This document shows, in pieces, positions 13,972 to 59,005 of a DNA stretch of 64,000 bases; positions within the stretch are counted from its first letter, which is position 1, and every line of letters starts with the position of its first letter. The notes below the pieces were generated by a model that saw nothing but the letters and a program-made list of their open reading frames with translations, had not been told where the DNA came from and did no database searches. The DNA is taken from the NCBI GenBank assembly GCA_013314775.1, contig JABUFB010000017.1, positions 1 to 64,000 on the forward strand, given 5' to 3'. Source of the stretch: Armatimonadota bacterium. GTDB taxonomy: Bacteria; Armatimonadota; Zipacnadia; Zipacnadales; JABUFB01. Position numbers and translations under genes: made by a program.

Positions 13972-14661
13972 CTACCAATCCCAGGCGATGCCACCGCGGA
14001 AGAAAGTGTCGCCGTCGAACTGCCCGGCGGTCAGCTCGATCTTGTCATTCACGCAGTAAGTCGCCATGTACGCGGGCATCGAGCGGTAGTTCAGAATTGC
14101 CGCGCCGATCTTCGGGGTGAACTTGAACTGGAAGCCGCCGAAGAGCTCGCTGTCATGCTGCTTCTCGCCCCAGCCGAGGTGAAGGCGGACGAGCGGGGCC
14201 TTCCAGGTCGGGACGGCGGGAGCGGCCAGATTGAAGGCGCCCAGCACGAACAGGGACGGGTCGTCGTAGTCCGGGTTGCCCATGGAGCGGGGCAGGCCCA
14301 GGTCAGCCATGAACTGCTGACCGCCGATCCAGTCCTCGCCGGTGATGTTGGTCGCGCCCACGATGAGGGACGGGTGGTCGGCGGTTTCCTTGACGAGGGT
14401 GACATACGCATTGGCCTGGAAGTAGGAATCGGCACTGTCAACGTCGGCATACCACAGGTCGACTTCGAGCCAGTCGGTGACGCCATAGAACAGTTCGCCG
14501 ATAACCGTATCGGTGTTCATCGGGCGGTTCCAGTAGATGGCGTTCGCTTCCCACTGTCCCTTGGCGACAACATTGCCGGTGGGCATGCTCACGATGTCGC
14601 CAGCCAGGACCGGCACTGCACTGCAGAGTACGAGGATTACGGCGACGACTAGTTTGGACAT
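13972..14661 (-). CDS. outer-membrane beta-barrel-like protein
   Basis: A 229-residue exported protein with a clear signal peptide (MSKLVVAVILVLCSAVPVLAG). Its body has alternating polar and aromatic strands (for example WEANAIYWNRPM and FFRGGIAWDW) and an aromatic C-terminus (AWDW), as in beta-barrels that end in Trp or Phe. GGAGG lies 7 bases before ATG 14661; the longer upstream frame runs into a hairpin and is rejected. An outer-membrane location fits a diderm envelope, but no specific family was recognised and its cargo or role is unknown. Confidence 0.7.
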   Translation of the reverse strand: MSKLVVAVILVLCSAVPVLAGDIVSMPTGNVVAKGQWEANAIYWNRPMNTDTVIGELFYGVTDWLEVDLWYADVDSADSYFQANAYVTLVKETADHPSLIVGATNITGEDWIGGQQFMADLGLPRSMGNPDYDDPSLFVLGAFNLAAPAVPTWKAPLVRLHLGWGEKQHDSELFGGFQFKFTPKIGAAILNYRSMPAYMATYCVNDKIELTAGQFDGDTFFRGGIAWDW

Positions 14662-14771
14662 TGGTCTTCCTCCCGTGTTGTCTGGCCTTGCGGCCTGCGA
14701 GTCGCTCGCAGCCATTGGCATTAGACCGTTCCCCCCGCTGAACGTCTTGCAGAACATTAAGAAAAGATTAG

Positions 14772-14794
14772 GCCCGGCGAAGAAAACGCCGGGC
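14772..14794. terminator. hairpin between isomerase and barrel genes
   Basis: A perfect 8-base stem GCCCGGCG (14772-14779) / CGCCGGGC (14787-14794). On the minus strand it follows the isomerase gene and is trailed by CTAATCTTTTC, so it probably ends that transcript. Confidence 0.6.
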
Positions 14795-14822
14795 TTTGTC
14801 TCGGGCTGTACGGGAACCGGGC

Positions 14823-15503
14823 TCAGGACGCCGGAGGGTACTCGTTGCACAACAGGTACATGGCCGGTTCGTCTTCGTCGATTGGCGAGAATCGCGGCTG
14901 GTTCTCCAGAAACCGGTTGTCGTTTTCGTCGTCGTTGACTTTCGAGACCTCGCCCACGAGCGCCGTGCCGGTTCCGGCTTCTGCCCAGAAGGTGTGGTAG
15001 TTGTAGGCAGGGAGGGTTATGCTCTCCCCCGGGGTGAGACGGATCACGGACCCCGCGGGTACCTGGTACGCATGGCCGTCCACATTCACCGGAACAGGCG
15101 TGTCGGCAAGCTGTTCATCCTCGGTGGAATTGTAGACCTTCACCAGCAGATTGCCACCCGCCCGGCAGATGATGTCTTCCATCTTGTTCCAGTGGAAGTG
15201 GTAGGGCGTGTACTGCTCCTCCTTCACGATCAGGAGCTTCTCGCAATAGGGCTTCGTGTACTTCTCCAGATGCGGGTGGCCATTGCGGATGGTGAACAGG
15301 AGCAGCCCCATTTCGTCGAACTTGCCACTGCCGTAATCCGTAATGTCCCAGCCTAGCTTACAGTCCCGTATCTCGTCCCACTCGTGTCCGGCCATCGCCC
15401 ATTGTTCCGGGGACCAAAAGGCCCACGGGGGCAGGTTGAAATTGTACTTCCGGCATAGTTCCACGTTCTCGCGCAGGATTGCGTTGATCTCGGATCGCTT
15501 CAC
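14823..15503 (-). CDS. D-lyxose isomerase-like cupin sugar isomerase
   Basis: A 226-residue protein resembling the D-lyxose/D-mannose isomerase family (about 225 residues). The cupin metal site is visible as YHFHWNKMEDI and, later, YNYHTFWAEAG, giving the expected His/His/Glu/His ligands. These enzymes interconvert D-lyxose with D-xylulose or D-mannose with D-fructose in the cytoplasm. The GTG start at 15503 is chosen because GAGGGG lies 6 bases upstream; the ATG further upstream adds an unlikely basic extension. It is last in a probable three-gene sugar operon, 55 bases after the ThuA-like gene. Confidence 0.85.
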   Translation of the reverse strand: MKRSEINAILRENVELCRKYNFNLPPWAFWSPEQWAMAGHEWDEIRDCKLGWDITDYGSGKFDEMGLLLFTIRNGHPHLEKYTKPYCEKLLIVKEEQYTPYHFHWNKMEDIICRAGGNLLVKVYNSTEDEQLADTPVPVNVDGHAYQVPAGSVIRLTPGESITLPAYNYHTFWAEAGTGTALVGEVSKVNDDENDNRFLENQPRFSPIDEDEPAMYLLCNEYPPAS

Positions 15504-15558
15504 GGTAATCCCCTCGCTATGGCCCGGGAGTGAAGTGTGATGGCTGCCCCGGCCTGCG

Positions 15559-16191
15559 TCAGCCTTCGCCACCAGCCGCCCAGATAAAGCCGCGGCGCAT
15601 GAGCTCGGCCACCTGCGGGATCTCGATGTCTGCCGCAACATGGCCTACGGAGCAGTAGTAGACCCGGCCCTTGCCGTAACTCTTGATCCAGACCGCGGGC
15701 ATCACGGTATAGTCGAAGTTCACCGTAGCCAACACGATGTTACCCGGGTCAACGTGCATGTAGTACTTCTCGCTGGTGACCTCGAAATCCCCGATGCCGG
15801 CGGTCAGCGGGTTCCACGGATCGACGATGTGCACGGTGTAGGTGACCCCGGCGCCCCCGGGATGCGCCACCCACTGGCCGCCGACCATGAACTGGTATTC
15901 GGTCTGCTGGCGGAAAGCATCGCTCATGCCGCCGTGAACTCCGGCGATCCCGCAGCCTCCACGCACCGCATCGAGCAGAGGGTTGAGTTGGTCGGCCTCG
16001 ATGTTCCCCATGGTCCAGACCGGCACGATGAGACTGAGGTCCTTCATCAGGGCTTCGTTCTTGAATGCGTCCAGTGTGTCGGAAATCTCGACGGACATGC
16101 CGCTATCGGTGAGGATCCGGGCAAAATGATCCGCAACCTGCACCGGTTCGTGGCCGTCCCAGCCACCGCGAACGATCAGGGCTTTCTTCAT
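15559..16191 (-). CDS. ThuA-like sugar-utilisation protein
   Basis: A 210-residue protein of the ThuA (trehalose utilisation) family with a class I glutamine-amidotransferase-like fold. Visible features are the N-terminal KALIVRGGWDGHEP, GGCGIAGVHGGMSDAFRQ and VWIKSYGKGRVYYCSVGH. ThuA relatives act in disaccharide catabolism, for example oxidation of trehalose to 3-keto-sugars, but the exact reaction of this branch is unknown. It has no signal peptide. GGAG lies 8 bases before the ATG. Flanking by an aldolase/lyase and an isomerase supports a cytoplasmic sugar pathway. Confidence 0.88.
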   Translation of the reverse strand: MKKALIVRGGWDGHEPVQVADHFARILTDSGMSVEISDTLDAFKNEALMKDLSLIVPVWTMGNIEADQLNPLLDAVRGGCGIAGVHGGMSDAFRQQTEYQFMVGGQWVAHPGGAGVTYTVHIVDPWNPLTAGIGDFEVTSEKYYMHVDPGNIVLATVNFDYTVMPAVWIKSYGKGRVYYCSVGHVAADIEIPQVAELMRRGFIWAAGGEG

Positions 16192-16294
16192 GCGTGAGTC
16201 TCCTTGTTACGCGCCCGCACGTGGCGGGAGCCAGCGGTTGTTCGCGACACTACTTCGCCCAACAATGGCCGGACACCTTCGCCGCCGCTACGGG

Positions 16295-17194
16295 TTACAG
16301 CGCCGTGAGCTCCTCGAGTCCGGCTTCGGCCAGTCGTCGGTGGAGGTCCCTTTGTTGATCGGGCGACAGCGTTGGGATTGGCCCTCTCGGGTCGCCGCAA
16401 TCATACCCCACGAGCTTCATGGTGGCCTTGAACGCCGGAATACCGCCGAACTGCAGCATCACATAGATGATCTGGTTACAGCGCGCCTGCAGGTACATCG
16501 CACGGTCCATGTCGCCGCTGAAGAAGGCCTCGCGCAGGCGCAGGAATGCGGCGGGGATGATGTTGTAGGTGGTGCCGATGGCCCCGTGCGCCCCCATGGT
16601 CAGTGCGGGCAGGTGCAGTTCATCGGGCCCGGAAAGCATGGTGAAACGCTGGCCGGTGAGCTCGAAGACCCACCTCATGAGGTACAGCGCGGGGTCGGTG
16701 AACTTCAGTCCGGCGAGGTTCGGGACCTCCAGCAACCTGCTGGCGCTATCGGCCGTGAGCGCCGCGCCGGTGAGGTGGGGGATGTGATAGATGAAGAACG
16801 GCAGATCGGTCGCCGAACCGATGGCCTTGTAATGGCCGAGGGTGGCTTCGAACCCAAGCTGGTAGTAGACCGGGGCGATGCTACTGACAGCATCGGCTCC
16901 GATATCCTGTGCGTGCTTGGCAAGTTCCACTGACTGCGCTGTGGTGTTGGACCCAACATGCACCATGACCGCGGCGCGACCGGCCACGATCTGCACCGCG
17001 GCCTCGGCCATGAGACGCCTCTCTTCGGGCGAGAGATAGAGGCCCTCGCCGGTGCTGCCACAGACGAAGAAGCCAGTGACGCCCACGTCGATCTGCCAGT
17101 TCAGGAGTGCCTCGAAGCGTCCGATGTCCACATTCCCGTCGTCATCGAAGGGCGTGAAAATCGCGGTATTGAGCCCATGCAGAGGTTCGAACAT
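16295..17194 (-). CDS. N-acetylneuraminate lyase-like / DHDPS-family aldolase
   Basis: A 299-residue TIM-barrel aldolase of the dihydrodipicolinate synthase superfamily. Key residues are visible: GSTGE at 46-50 (substrate carboxylate binding), Tyr136 in FFIYHIP and the Schiff-base Lys164 in GLKFTDP. Numbering and the IGTTYN motif match N-acetylneuraminate lyase (Tyr137, Lys165) better than DapA, so cleavage of sialic acid or a related keto-acid sugar is the best guess. It is first in the operon with the ThuA-like and isomerase genes, with its own promoter at 17234-17262. Other keto-acid aldolase activities in this superfamily cannot be excluded. Confidence 0.85.
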   Translation of the reverse strand: MFEPLHGLNTAIFTPFDDDGNVDIGRFEALLNWQIDVGVTGFFVCGSTGEGLYLSPEERRLMAEAAVQIVAGRAAVMVHVGSNTTAQSVELAKHAQDIGADAVSSIAPVYYQLGFEATLGHYKAIGSATDLPFFIYHIPHLTGAALTADSASRLLEVPNLAGLKFTDPALYLMRWVFELTGQRFTMLSGPDELHLPALTMGAHGAIGTTYNIIPAAFLRLREAFFSGDMDRAMYLQARCNQIIYVMLQFGGIPAFKATMKLVGYDCGDPRGPIPTLSPDQQRDLHRRLAEAGLEELTAL

Positions 17195-17262: not shown

Positions 17263-17337
17263 GCGCCTGGAAAGGCGTGCAGAGGAGTCCGCCGCGTGCC
17301 GGAGAAGAGACCCGGACAACCAAGGGAGGTGCGCCCA

Positions 17338-18720
17338 TTGAAGGTCATTCTGATCTACGCGGACTCGCTGAGACGCGATCACGTCGGCGCTTACGGCAAT
17401 GACTGGATTCATACGCCAAATCTGGACCGCCTTGCCGCGCAGTCGAGTGTGTTCGAGCACGCCTACATCGGATCTTTTCCCACGGTGCCCACGCGCCGCG
17501 ACGTCATGCTGGGCTGCGGTGACAAGGGCGTGCCTTTCAACCGCTGGAAGTGCATCGACAATGATGAGGTGACGCTCCCCGAGCGCCTGGCAGCCAAGAA
17601 CATCCCATCGATGATGATCACCGATGTGCAGAACACGGTGACGCGCGGGATCAACATCAACAAAGGGTTCACCGCCTGGACCTGTAACCGCGGGCAGGAG
17701 GCGGACCCGTCGTGGATGGATGACACGGTGCCGCTGGAGTTCCCGGTGGAGCCACACCTGATTCGCTACCCGGCCGCCTGGTGGCACCAGATCCTGGTCA
17801 CCCGGGTGCATCGCAGGACCGAAGAAGACTGGTTTGCACCGGCCACTTATGCCACAGCAATCCGATGGTTGCAGCAGAACTATACCCGCGACAGTTTCTT
17901 CCTTTATCTGGACACCTTCGACCCCCACGAGCCCTGGGATCCGCCCCAATGGTATGAAGATATGTATGATCCGGGCTTCAAGGGCAGGCGCTTCGATGCG
18001 CCGACGTACGGAATCGTGAAAAAGCTTGGCTACACGCCCCGCGAGGTCAGGAACATCCGCGCGCGGTATGCGGGTGAGGTGACCATGGTGGATGCTGCGC
18101 TGGGGCGACTTCTCACCACCCTCGAAGACCTGGGAATCGCCGACGATACGCTCCTGATCTTCACCAGTGATCACGGCATCTATCTGGATTACCCTGCTGA
18201 CAACGGGATGATCTGCAAGGCAAACATGCTCGGCGATGACGGCTCAATCATGGGCGGGGGCGCCCCACCGAAGCCGCCACTACACTATTACCCCCACTAT
18301 ACGGGCGTCTGCCGTATCCCGCTCATGATTCGGCTGCCCGGGCAAACCAAAGGGCGGCGCATCCCGGCGATCGTCCAGCCGTGGGACTTGACTACCACTG
18401 TGCTGGATGCATTCGGGATACCGAAGCCGGACGGTCTGTGGGGGAATTCGCTGCTCCCGCTGGCGGCAGGTAAAGGTCGCAAGGGCCGCGATGCTGCCCT
18501 CCTGGGGACGCCCATCAATACTCAGGTAATGACACCGGAGTGGATGTACTGTGTTTGGCGCGGACAGCGTGAACCGGTGCTGTATAACCTCGAGAAAGAC
18601 CCTAATCAGACGAAGAACGTGGTCCACAAGTACCCGGACGTTGCCGCTCAGATGCGCAGGTTCGCAGATGAGCACCTTGCGATGCAGGGAATGGGAGACC
18701 AGGCGGGGGAGTACAAGTAG
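17338..18720 (+). CDS. sulfatase-superfamily hydrolase lacking the Cys/Ser nucleophile
   Basis: A 460-residue alkaline-phosphatase-superfamily protein. Metal-binding elements are present: Asp9 and Asp14 in YADSLRRDHVGAYG, and TSDHG near residue 280. At the position of the formylglycine motif CxPSR it reads T49-V-P-T-R53, so the residue converted to formylglycine in true sulfatases is replaced by Thr. Thr is the nucleophile in phosphodiesterases (NPP-type) of the same superfamily, so phosphoester or phosphonate cleavage is possible. TTG 17338 is chosen because GGGAGG lies 8 bases upstream. There is no signal peptide. It is divergent from the lyase operon. Confidence 0.85.
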   Translation: MKVILIYADSLRRDHVGAYGNDWIHTPNLDRLAAQSSVFEHAYIGSFPTVPTRRDVMLGCGDKGVPFNRWKCIDNDEVTLPERLAAKNIPSMMITDVQNTVTRGININKGFTAWTCNRGQEADPSWMDDTVPLEFPVEPHLIRYPAAWWHQILVTRVHRRTEEDWFAPATYATAIRWLQQNYTRDSFFLYLDTFDPHEPWDPPQWYEDMYDPGFKGRRFDAPTYGIVKKLGYTPREVRNIRARYAGEVTMVDAALGRLLTTLEDLGIADDTLLIFTSDHGIYLDYPADNGMICKANMLGDDGSIMGGGAPPKPPLHYYPHYTGVCRIPLMIRLPGQTKGRRIPAIVQPWDLTTTVLDAFGIPKPDGLWGNSLLPLAAGKGRKGRDAALLGTPINTQVMTPEWMYCVWRGQREPVLYNLEKDPNQTKNVVHKYPDVAAQMRRFADEHLAMQGMGDQAGEYK

Positions 18721-55993: not shown

Positions 55994-57379
55994 CTACCAC
56001 TCGTCCGGGATCGCATGGCGTTCGGCGTCCACTTCCTCGAACCAGTTCTCCAGCTCGGTGAGCATCCGCGCGGTACGGTCGGGTTCATCCGCCGCGAGGT
56101 CCCTCAACTCGCACGGGTCCTCGCGGATGTTGAACAGCATGGGTGGCGGAGGTTCGGGAAGGATGCGCTCGGGTTCGGGTTCACGGTTGATGTCGGTTAC
56201 GGTCTCGGGCGCGTACTTGAGAGCGCGGTCAATCTGGCCGTCAAGGGGGGTAACGGCCATGCTTTCGCGGATGACGGGGCGCAGGAGTTTCCAGTCGCCG
56301 TCGCGGAAGGCCGCGTTTGACTGGACCACAGGCGTGTACCGGTTCCACTGCCAAAACCGCCGGGTGCAGACGTCTCCGGGCTCGCCCCGGAGCATCGGCA
56401 GCACATTGCAGCCGTCGAGTGTCTTGCCCGCGGGCAAGTCGCAGCCCACGGCGCTCGCCAGCGTCGGGAGCCAGTCACAGAAGTGCATCATCGCATCTAC
56501 CTGTAGGCCGGACGGGAGACCGTCCGGCCAGCGCACCAGCCCGGGCACCCGGATGCCGCCCTCGTATACATTGCACTTGGAGCCATTGAAGCCGCAGTTG
56601 TGGCGAGTCGTGCACTGGTCGCCCTCGCCGCCAAACTGCGGCCCGTTGTCGCTGGTGAAGATGAAGATCGTGTTGTTCACGATGCCGCAGTCTTCGAGGG
56701 TCTCCAGCAGAGCCCCGACGCCGGCGTCCATCCTGCGGATCATGGCATAGATCATGCGAACGGCGTGGGTAAGACCCGCAGCGTCAGGGACGGCGGCAAG
56801 ATCTTCGTCCGGGGCCTGGAAAGGGAAATGTGGGGCGTTGTAGGTGAGATGCAGGAAGAAGGGTTCACGCTGATGTCGGCGGACGAAGTCACAGGCTTCG
56901 TCGGTGAAGACATCGGTGAGATAGCGCCCGTCGGACCTGCTGATGGAGCCGTTGCGGTCGAGGCGCCAGTCGTAGTAGTCCTGCCATCCGCCGCGAAATC
57001 CGGCGAACTCGTCGAAGCCGCGCTGGTTCGGGTGATAGCGCGGATCCAGTGCGCCCAGGTGCCATTTTCCCAGGAGCCCGGTGACGTATCCGGCGGCCTG
57101 AAGCATGTCGCCCATGGTCACCTCGGCCAGCGCGAGGCGGTCCAGGCCGCGGCCCTCGTAGGTATCCACGGCTCCCGTGCGGTGCGGGTAACGGCCCGTC
57201 ATCAGCGCTGCCCGCGATGGGGCGCAGACGCAGGAGCCGGCGTAGTGCTGAGTCAGGCAGACCCCCTCGCAAGCCAGTCGGTCGAGGTTGGGCGTCTGGC
57301 TCAGACCACCGTTGAAGATGCCGAAGTCACCGTAGCCCATGTCATCGGCGAGGACCAGCACGATATTGGGTCTGGACAC
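55994..57379 (-). CDS. type I sulfatase (formylglycine-dependent)
   Basis: A 461-residue sulfatase. The formylglycine motif is Cys52-Ala-Pro-Ser-Arg56 followed by AALMTGR; Asp12/Asp13 (LADDMGYGD) and TSDNG bind calcium, and GKWHLG holds the conserved Lys/His pair. It removes sulfate esters from carbohydrates. There is no signal peptide (it starts MSRPNIVLVLADD), unlike most exported sulfatases, so it would act in the cytoplasm on imported fragments. GTG 57379 has GGGAGG 8 bases upstream. It needs a sulfatase-modifying enzyme encoded elsewhere. Confidence 0.94.
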   Translation of the reverse strand: MSRPNIVLVLADDMGYGDFGIFNGGLSQTPNLDRLACEGVCLTQHYAGSCVCAPSRAALMTGRYPHRTGAVDTYEGRGLDRLALAEVTMGDMLQAAGYVTGLLGKWHLGALDPRYHPNQRGFDEFAGFRGGWQDYYDWRLDRNGSISRSDGRYLTDVFTDEACDFVRRHQREPFFLHLTYNAPHFPFQAPDEDLAAVPDAAGLTHAVRMIYAMIRRMDAGVGALLETLEDCGIVNNTIFIFTSDNGPQFGGEGDQCTTRHNCGFNGSKCNVYEGGIRVPGLVRWPDGLPSGLQVDAMMHFCDWLPTLASAVGCDLPAGKTLDGCNVLPMLRGEPGDVCTRRFWQWNRYTPVVQSNAAFRDGDWKLLRPVIRESMAVTPLDGQIDRALKYAPETVTDINREPEPERILPEPPPPMLFNIREDPCELRDLAADEPDRTARMLTELENWFEEVDAERHAIPDEW

Positions 57380-57403: not shown

Positions 57404-59005
57404 TCAGTGCTCCGGCCGGAACATTTGGAAATCGCCCTGAGGCACGTCCAGCAGCTCGTACTTGTCCAGCCGGAATGTGTGCCAGTAGCATGTCCAGCGC
57501 GGGTCGCTTTCGAGGATCGCACCGAGCCGGCGAATCATCTTGGTTTTCACATCAGAGAATGCCGCATCTGTTGAAAGGTCACGGTACGAAAGGTCATCAA
57601 GGTCGTACAGTTCGTCCTGGGGCGATGTCAGGTTGTATGTGTACATGAAGCGCCCGCGCCCGGGGATCTCAGCAAAGGTCGCCACCGCCGGATTGGGGCA
57701 GACGTGCCAGCCACATTCCATGAGGATCGGACGCTCCGCGCACCAGCCCTCACCTCGAGCCACGGAGATCAGGCTTTCCCCGTCCAGACGGTCCAGAGGC
57801 ATGACGCCGGCCAGTTCGAAAATCGTCGGGGCAAGATCCACCAGCGAGACCAGATCATCCACCTTCGTTCCCGCTGACGCACCGCCCGGGAACTTGAGGG
57901 ATAGGGGCACGCGCGCGGTCTTCGGGTGGCCATAGACGCCCTTGTCCACCAGGGCGCGCTCGCAGTTCATCTCTCCGTGGTCGCCGGAAAAGATGATTGC
58001 CGACTCCCCATACAGGCCGCGCCGGTCCAATGCGTCGATGAACGCGCCGATTGCGGTGTCCAGCGCCTCGACCTGCAGCAGGTTCATGAGCATGTACTGG
58101 CGGGCGGTCTCTTCCTCGTACAGGCCCCAATTGCGCAGGTAGAAACCGTAGACCCGGGGCCATTCGCTGCCCAGCGTGGCCAGGGCCTCCAGGTAGCTGC
58201 CATGCAACTCGATGTGAGGCGCAAGTTCCCGCGCCCTGTCGCGGAAGCATTCGGGGACGAAGAATGGTTGGTGCGGAGCGAAGAAGTCGAGCTGCAAGTA
58301 GATAGGCTGACCGGGGGACGCCTGGCGCATGGCCGCGTCGAGTTTCTGTTCTGCGAGCCATGCAAGGTACCGGGAGTAGGTGGCCTCCAGCGGGAACTCG
58401 GAGCCGTCGGGCTGGGTAATCCAGCCGCCGTAGCTATTGCCGGGCGTGGCGCGATCAGGTCTCAGGCCGCGCACCGGGTCGGGCCAGACCGGGGGCTGCA
58501 CTCCCAGGCCGTCCAGGTAGCGCAGGTACCCGTCATCATCGGCCATAGGCGGGGCCCAGCGGTCCCAGGGCGCATCGTTCTCGCCGAAGGCATCCAGGAA
58601 CTTGGCTGCCCCCACATGGCACTTGCCTGCGTGTTTGGTGAGGTAGCCGGCTGCCCTCAGGTACTCCGGGAAAATGGCGTCAGAGCGCCTCAGAGAAGTC
58701 TCCCAGCCGTCGTGAGCCCGCTCTTCATTCACCGTGAGATAAGGGTATCTGCCGGTGAGGGTGCAGGCGCGCGATGGGCCACACAGGGGAGATGCGGTGA
58801 AGGCATTGGAGAAGCGCACGCCGTCACGCATGAGCCGGTCCATGGCCGGCGTGTGTAGATATTCCCGCAAGGGGTTTTCGGGCTGGTATGCCTCGGGCGG
58901 GATCATGTCCACAGTGATGACGAAGAGGTTGGGGCGCTGGGCGTCGGGGTCTGCCGCAAAAGCATGTTCTCCGCGCTTGGGGTCGAGGTACCGAGTGTTC
59001 TTCAT
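57404..59005 (-). CDS. type I sulfatase, second copy
   Basis: A 533-residue sulfatase with formylglycine motif Cys75-Gly-Pro-Ser-Arg79 (PLCGPSRACTLTGR), metal ligand Asp33 (TVDMIPPEAY), GKCHVG at the Lys/His position and FSGDHGE late. It is only distantly similar to its neighbour, so substrate differs. No signal peptide; residues 1-22 are a short polar extension. AGGAG lies 4-5 bases before the ATG, and the gene is 24 bases upstream of the next sulfatase, indicating cotranscription. Confidence 0.92.
   Translation of the reverse strand: MKNTRYLDPKRGEHAFAADPDAQRPNLFVITVDMIPPEAYQPENPLREYLHTPAMDRLMRDGVRFSNAFTASPLCGPSRACTLTGRYPYLTVNEERAHDGWETSLRRSDAIFPEYLRAAGYLTKHAGKCHVGAAKFLDAFGENDAPWDRWAPPMADDDGYLRYLDGLGVQPPVWPDPVRGLRPDRATPGNSYGGWITQPDGSEFPLEATYSRYLAWLAEQKLDAAMRQASPGQPIYLQLDFFAPHQPFFVPECFRDRARELAPHIELHGSYLEALATLGSEWPRVYGFYLRNWGLYEEETARQYMLMNLLQVEALDTAIGAFIDALDRRGLYGESAIIFSGDHGEMNCERALVDKGVYGHPKTARVPLSLKFPGGASAGTKVDDLVSLVDLAPTIFELAGVMPLDRLDGESLISVARGEGWCAERPILMECGWHVCPNPAVATFAEIPGRGRFMYTYNLTSPQDELYDLDDLSYRDLSTDAAFSDVKTKMIRRLGAILESDPRWTCYWHTFRLDKYELLDVPQGDFQMFRPEH

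Follow-up and report, generated by a model that had tools for sequence, protein, structure and literature searches.

The window, by which we mean the whole 64,000-nucleotide stretch of DNA analyzed here, belongs to a genome of 6.1 Mb and contains a gene for a sulfatase-fold protein in which a threonine stands where sulfatases have the Cys or Ser that becomes formylglycine (FGly). The features read at this locus are collected in Table 1. The TTG at 17338 was preferred as start codon over an in-frame GTG at 17296, because a Shine-Dalgarno-like element lies 8 nt upstream of it and the starts of the orthologs agree: those of L001 (GTG), L002 (ATG), and L007 (ATG) fall at the same residue. The first strand of the protein runs from residue 2, with D9 soon after, which as read from the sequence leaves no room for a signal peptide or an N-terminal anchor. 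Of the named records, the two closest were MAGs, one from Candidatus Zipacnadia with 72% identity and one from Armatimonadetes with 95% identity over 220 residues.

Table 1. Features of the Thr-type gene and assigned residues of its product (window coordinates)
Feature	Position	Strand	Basis or conservation
ORF, 460 aa, Thr-type sulfatase-fold hydrolase	17338..18720	+	TTG start, stop included
Shine-Dalgarno-like AAGGGAGG	17322..17329	+	8 nt upstream of TTG start; from sequence
D9, homology-assigned metal ligand, equivalent to D14 in S. meliloti choline sulfatase and D20 in EfAS	17362..17364	+	D in all Thr-type (113), Cys-type (17), and GKxH (31) rows
T49 (ACG), replaces FGly Cys/Ser; predicted nucleophile and metal ligand	17482..17484	+	Sequence, family alignment
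R53 (CGC), Arg of C-x-P-x-R signature, kept	17494..17496	+	Within the D96 subset, R in all 113 Thr-type and all 17 Cys-type rows
D96, Asp at the Lys position of GKxH	17623..17625	+	D in 113/113 rows with Thr49 and Arg53
N99, at the His place of GKxH	17632..17634	+	N in 12 orthologs
H197 (FDPHEPW motif), likely general acid from homology to H201 in choline sulfatase	17926..17928	+	H in 111/113 Thr-type rows, 2 gapped
D278-H279, metal ligands by homology (SDHG)	18169..18174	+	D and H in 109/113 Thr-type rows, 4 gapped
K294, general-acid partner by homology (K309 of choline sulfatase)	18217..18219	+	K in 104/113 Thr-type rows (M, G, or R in 5, gap in 4)

We searched 291 genomes from the phylum, scoring five candidates per genome with E up to 1e-90, so that fragments may be missed, and obtained 12 genomes with orthologs (matches of at least 56% identity). 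Thr49 and Asn99 were present in all 12. For a wider comparison we aligned 169 rows, taken from loci that included the N terminus and whose match to a profile made from L067 and the Thr types had an E value no higher than 1e-12, leaving out fragments without N terminus and copies having an 80-residue stretch in common. This alignment held 113 rows with Thr49 and Arg53, all of them with Asp96, and 17 further rows combining Cys, Asp96, and Arg53; the 113:17 ratio of Thr to Cys mirrors the search and not nature. Within genomes of the window's phylum, the D96 subfamily had 115 members, of which 112 carried Thr and 3 carried Cys.

All four threonine codons are in use at position 49, with ACC in 55, ACG in 35, ACA in 14, and ACT in 8 of the 112 Thr-type rows other than the window, whose own ACG is replaced by ACA in the 72%-identical ortholog L001. 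The use of four codons and the presence of Thr in 12/12 orthologs rule out a sequencing error or chance as its source. Comparison with the same-genus homolog L002 over the first 220 codons gave a dN/dS (NG86) of about 0.05 (dN 0.024, dS 0.523), and comparison with L001 gave about 0.13 (dN 0.20, dS 1.59). The window gene is thus under purifying selection. The preliminary description had envisaged that relatives with Cys at this position might turn up and the Thr be traced to an error; such Cys relatives do exist, one of them (L067) in the same genome, but the Thr is genuine. One ortholog, L214 (G249:C90), is cut by an in-frame stop into two adjoining pieces, reflecting either a broken gene or an assembly error.

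Two observations of the preliminary description, namely a T49-V-P-T-R53 motif devoid of Cys and Ser and the retention of the metal ligands, held for the 460-aa ORF and across the Thr-type rows (Table 1). The corresponding metal residues are Asp14/Cys54/Asp296/His297 in S. meliloti choline sulfatase (SmCS), which also has a His201-Lys309 pair (available sections of PMC5870055), and D20/C61/D311/H312 in EfAS (available sections of PMC12421950). D9, R53, H197, D278, and H279 were invariant in all Thr-type rows having those columns, and K294 was found in 104/109. Compared with the formylglycine sulfatases of family S1, the protein aligns with the D...D-N/H metal site and the signature Arg (D9, D278, H279, and R53, with metal binding predicted), has T49 in place of the Cys/Ser of C/S-x-P/A-x-R, and carries D96 and N99 for the Lys and His of GKxH. 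Position 96 was K in 17/20 Cys rows of a first alignment. Residue 10 is Ser, where Asp or Gln mostly follows the first metal Asp. The missing Cys, Lys, and His, all part of the classical sulfatase set, could speak for a noncatalytic relative that binds a ligand; given that the remaining residues are invariant or, for K294, nearly so, and that one hydroxyl residue is fixed at position 49, we regard this as very unlikely.

The family assignment of the protein was clear at the level of the fold. Pfam PF00884 matched with an E value of 1.2e-36 and 127.1 bits against a cut-off of 25, placing it in the sulfatase fold family. PF01663 gave 4.7e-9 and 36.7 bits (gathering score, 23) over only 38 residues (244-281), a short match that an ordinary Cys sulfatase in the same window gives as well. 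No NCBIfam model reached its cut-off for the window protein, and assignment to PehA was dismissed since the corresponding model, NF045661, has a cut-off of 900 bits and the protein scored 99. The best 60 of 76 matches in a PDB sequence search listed sulfatases and phosphonate monoester hydrolases (PMHs); FGly sulfatases and PMHs were likewise listed in the best 60 of 82 matches of a PDB profile search and the best 50 of 590 of a Foldseek search with a predicted model, where 4uph ranked top by E value. Built from a four-row alignment, this model was weak (mean pLDDT, 52.5; pTM, 0.61; residues 43-77 and 279-325 below 50) and backs the predicted fold only, being too weak for active-site geometry.

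The nearest kin are therefore FGly sulfatases and PMHs and not NPPs. The preliminary description had linked the Thr to phosphodiesterases of the NPP type, and this kinship was not upheld by the two Pfam scores, the best-listed PDB and Foldseek matches, and the retained Arg of the FGE motif. Filing under PF01663 was rejected for its limited coverage and its lower bit score; the Thr does lie at the position aligned with the NPP Thr nucleophile, and its role as nucleophile is putative. LtaS-type filing was rejected too, because T49-V-P-T-R53 stands instead of TxNxE and an N-terminal anchor finds no room. The doubt that had been cast on a sulfatase annotation gained weight, as Thr49 is genuine and conserved and the known FGly routes are excluded at this position. 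Judged by these residues, the automatic label "sulfatase" is unsafe.

We then compared the protein with the other sulfatase-fold genes of its genome, which has 42 PF00884 matches. Leaving out one weak match, 41 genes were classed, 39 as aligned rows and 2 by motif, into 30 with Cys, 1 with Ser, 8 with Thr and Arg (the window gene included), and 2 with Thr but without Arg. Ten of the 41 thus have Thr, from which no known route leads to FGly. The capacity for making formylglycine probably persists in the genome: six proteins exceeded the cut-off for PF03781, a broad family with FGE among its members, and two anSME-type maturases exceeded theirs. Within the window, two adjoining PF00884 genes on the reverse strand (55994-57379 and 57404-59005) have the ordinary Cys motifs CVCAPSR and PLCGPSR and are candidates for normal sulfatases. 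The Cys-type sulfatase L053 (G000:C15:45124-46179) has LS for a near-invariant PH motif, its Ser aligning with the general-acid His. A second Thr group, L045 (G000:C12) and L060 (G000:C14), reads HIPT-x-x-GY, with Tyr for the signature Arg and no GKxH.

A homolog of FGE or anSME might oxidize the Thr itself, giving a ketone counterpart of FGly. Six PF03781 proteins in the genome and an intact x-P-x-R frame (Pro in 108 and Arg in all of the 113 Thr-type rows) would agree with this. However, position 52 is highly variable in the Thr types (N, M, A, H, V), and FGly formation from Thr has never been demonstrated according to the SulfAtlas authors (available sections of PMC5066984), so that such an oxidation appears extremely improbable.

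L067 (contig C4, 80508-81476), which lies close to ABC transporter genes of the sugar type, belongs to the window gene's own D96 subfamily and has Cys. More such members were found on plasmids. Matches occurred in 340 plasmid records, and the 16 hits that were opened comprised 14 Cys-type D96 proteins, one Cys protein of the GKxH type, and one Thr-type protein (Martelella, L093), which was the best hit; the hosts were rhizobia, haloarchaea, Deinococcus, Streptomyces, Enterococcus, and others. Searching plasmids with the Martelella Thr protein gave 9 records, none of them close besides the Martelella protein itself. Thirteen phage records matched, the 10 listed having at most 29% identity, and IMG/VR contained one Thr-type relative on a viral contig (L189).

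The Cys-type D96 plasmid proteins, annotated only as sulfatase or sulfatase-like, have D96, W70, FDPHEP[WF] or near variants, R53, and S/T10 in common with the window protein and differ from it in their Cys nucleophile motif and in having His at both 97 and 99 (17/17). Since D96 and S/T10 are common to Cys-type members, they do not mark Thr chemistry, and D96, present in 17 Cys-type members, was dropped as its hallmark. Nor does the change from Lys to Asp at position 96 count as evidence for phosphate chemistry, being common to Cys-type sulfatases of which two lie beside FGE genes. A D-H-x-H stretch in the plasmid sulfatases (L094-L099, L181-L188) might bind a second metal. Among 11 annotated Cys-type loci, an FGE-family gene was nearby in two (L181, L187), a TauE/SafE exporter gene in one (L187), a sulfotransferase-family gene in one (L185), and carbohydrate ABC permease genes in five (L095, L098, L183, L184, L185). 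These proteins look like genuine cytosolic sulfatases supplied by sugar transporters.

The FGE genes of this Cys clade and its TauE/SafE gene, which encodes a sulfite exporter, suggest that substrates of the family may be sulfated. The window protein could then still be a sulfatase, either by slow direct hydrolysis of a Thr-sulfate intermediate or with Thr as a metal-bound base for water. Slow turnover is described for choline sulfatase without the modification, in the source sections available. Substitution of the nucleophile leaves some activity in SmCS C54S, but with an approximately 4,000-fold lower kcat/KM for choline sulfate, and SmCS K102L was below the stated detection limits (available sections of PMC5870055); EfAS C61S keeps about 20 to 35% of its activity, which its authors ascribe to oxidation of Ser to FGly (available sections of PMC12421950). 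In the window protein the GKxH Lys is gone, and in its ortholog group the His as well. Moreover, a genome with FGE-family and anSME-type genes and with Cys in 30 of 41 sulfatase-fold genes has no need to abandon FGly for sulfate chemistry. We consider a retained sulfatase function unlikely.

The direction of the nucleophile change was approached with two trees, and the Cys clade fell among Thr clades both in a quick tree of 89 rows, which omitted the columns of the nucleophile and of GKxH, and in a careful one with fewer distant rows (77 rows). In AU tests, a tree with all Thr rows together was 3.9 log units better for the 89-row set (p 0.581) and 19.1 log units worse for the 77-row set, where it was not rejected (p-AU 0.109); in the latter set, Thr rows stood on one side of a branch in 0/200 bootstrap trees. 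Thr may have arisen more than once, Cys may have been regained, or a single Thr origin may have been misplaced by the model. A tentative and rather doubtful scenario is that the nucleophile switched from Thr to Cys: Cys sulfatases, some beside FGE genes, would have emerged from inside an older radiation of Thr-type phosphoesterases and regained FGly on a frame that had the x-P-x-R Arg. Two separate gains of Thr would fit the trees too. The Thr group without Arg (L045, L060, and Paenibacillus L100_3) lay outside the D96 subfamily, beside a Cys group.

At 33 Thr-type loci including the window (L194, L200-L203, L208, and L209 being outside the scan), no shared partner that would name the substrate was seen among the selected neighbors. 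Divergent from the window gene, at 13972-17194 on the reverse strand, lies a run of partly overlapping genes for DHDPS/N-acetylneuraminate-lyase-like, ThuA, and D-lyxose isomerase-like proteins and a 292-aa ORF, which hints at sugars. A DHDPS-family gene accompanies the window gene in genomes G000, G001, and G002, its place being conserved in G001 and G002 alone, both near relatives, and an H+-pyrophosphatase gene does so in G000, G002, and G003, while the G001 contig ends before that side; this company within the window's taxonomic family looks like plain synteny. Just upstream of the orthologs L210 (G248) and L214 (G249), and arranged alike in both genomes, are genes for a pyruvate-formate-lyase-like glycyl-radical enzyme and for a radical-SAM protein, which are absent at the other orthologs looked at. 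Four Thr-type loci (L074, L077, L088, L211) have URO-D-family genes a few genes away at most, perhaps due to the abundance of that family in the phylum.

Within the alkaline phosphatase superfamily, some transferases combine a Thr nucleophile with a single metal. LtaS/EptA enzymes are membrane anchored, and NPP phosphodiesterases have a two-metal site. A transferase similar to LtaS/EptA, in which a phospho-Thr or sulfo-Thr hands its group to an acceptor alcohol, would be in line with this background, with the location of the paralog L059 directly downstream of a diacylglycerol-kinase-like gene (L190), and with the Thr found in place of Cys/Ser in 30 of the 59 PF00884 seed proteins, which the SulfAtlas authors discuss together with a TxNxE motif (available sections of PMC5066984). 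Yet the window protein has TxPxR and no room for an anchor, and a lipid or polymer pathway was not recurrent among the neighbors looked at. Transfer thus seems improbable.

On balance, we judge it somewhat more likely than not that the window protein is a cytosolic phosphoester hydrolase of the sulfatase/PMH branch of the alkaline phosphatase superfamily, using a single divalent metal and an unmodified Thr in place of FGly. Its substrate would be small and possibly linked to a sugar, and catalysis would pass through a phospho-Thr intermediate. Enzymes from this branch show promiscuous activity on phosphate or phosphonate esters (available sections of PMC5870055 and PMC12421950). From the sequence we infer Thr as nucleophile, the phospho-intermediate, phosphate over sulfate, the one metal, the cytosolic location, and the substrate class. 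D9, D278, H279, and T49 would hold one metal, and the metal-activated T49 alkoxide would attack the phosphorus of a small molecule, perhaps resembling a sugar, that is esterified as a phosphodiester or phosphomonoester. R53 would stabilize charge during the attack, H197/K294 would protonate the leaving group, and water would finally hydrolyze the phospho-Thr intermediate. The GKxH His is kept in 17/17 Cys-type D96 rows, 26/31 GKxH rows, and 79/113 Thr-type rows, the latter having at residue 99 otherwise N (16), Q (8), G (5), P (3), S (1), and a gap (1). Most Thr types thus retain it; its lower conservation among them would be expected if an FGly-specific base were less needed, the rows being related and not a count of events.

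FGly is thought to enable the turnover of sulfate esters in this fold, and Ser/Thr sister enzymes cut phosphate esters. Here one subfamily has both Thr and Cys at the nucleophile position, and a single genome encodes both versions (the window gene and L067) on active-site frames that largely match, which offers a natural experiment on the extent to which the nucleophile by itself sets sulfate versus phosphate. On the Thr form of the sulfatase motif, we found in the open-licence literature only the SulfAtlas remark on Thr and TxNxE, and neither a description of a TxPxR family nor biochemistry of a Thr-type (TxPxR) member. The SulfAtlas authors hold that such Thr proteins should not be called functional sulfatases without experiments (available sections of PMC5066984).

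With the S1 FGly sulfatases, such as S. meliloti choline sulfatase and BT1918 (7oz8), the window protein has in common the fold family, the D9/D278/H279 site, the x-P-x-R frame, R53, H197, and K294. In contrast to them, it has Thr for Cys/Ser, Asp96 for the GKxH Lys, S10 for Asp/Gln, and, within its ortholog group, Asn99 for His. The LtaS/EptA/MCR transferases and the NPPs (PF01663) use a Thr nucleophile within the alkaline phosphatase superfamily, as is predicted for it, but are not its nearest kin in profile and structure searches. The FGly PMHs and phosphodiesterases (PehA, RlPMH 2vqr, and 4uph) perform phosphoester chemistry in a sulfatase frame, and PMHs presumably have a D-H second metal pair, as the window protein does. 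They differ in their nucleophile, which is FGly in PehA/PMH-type enzymes (SulfAtlas S1_0; available sections of PMC5066984) and presumably Thr49 in the window protein, whose score with NF045661 is far below the cut-off.
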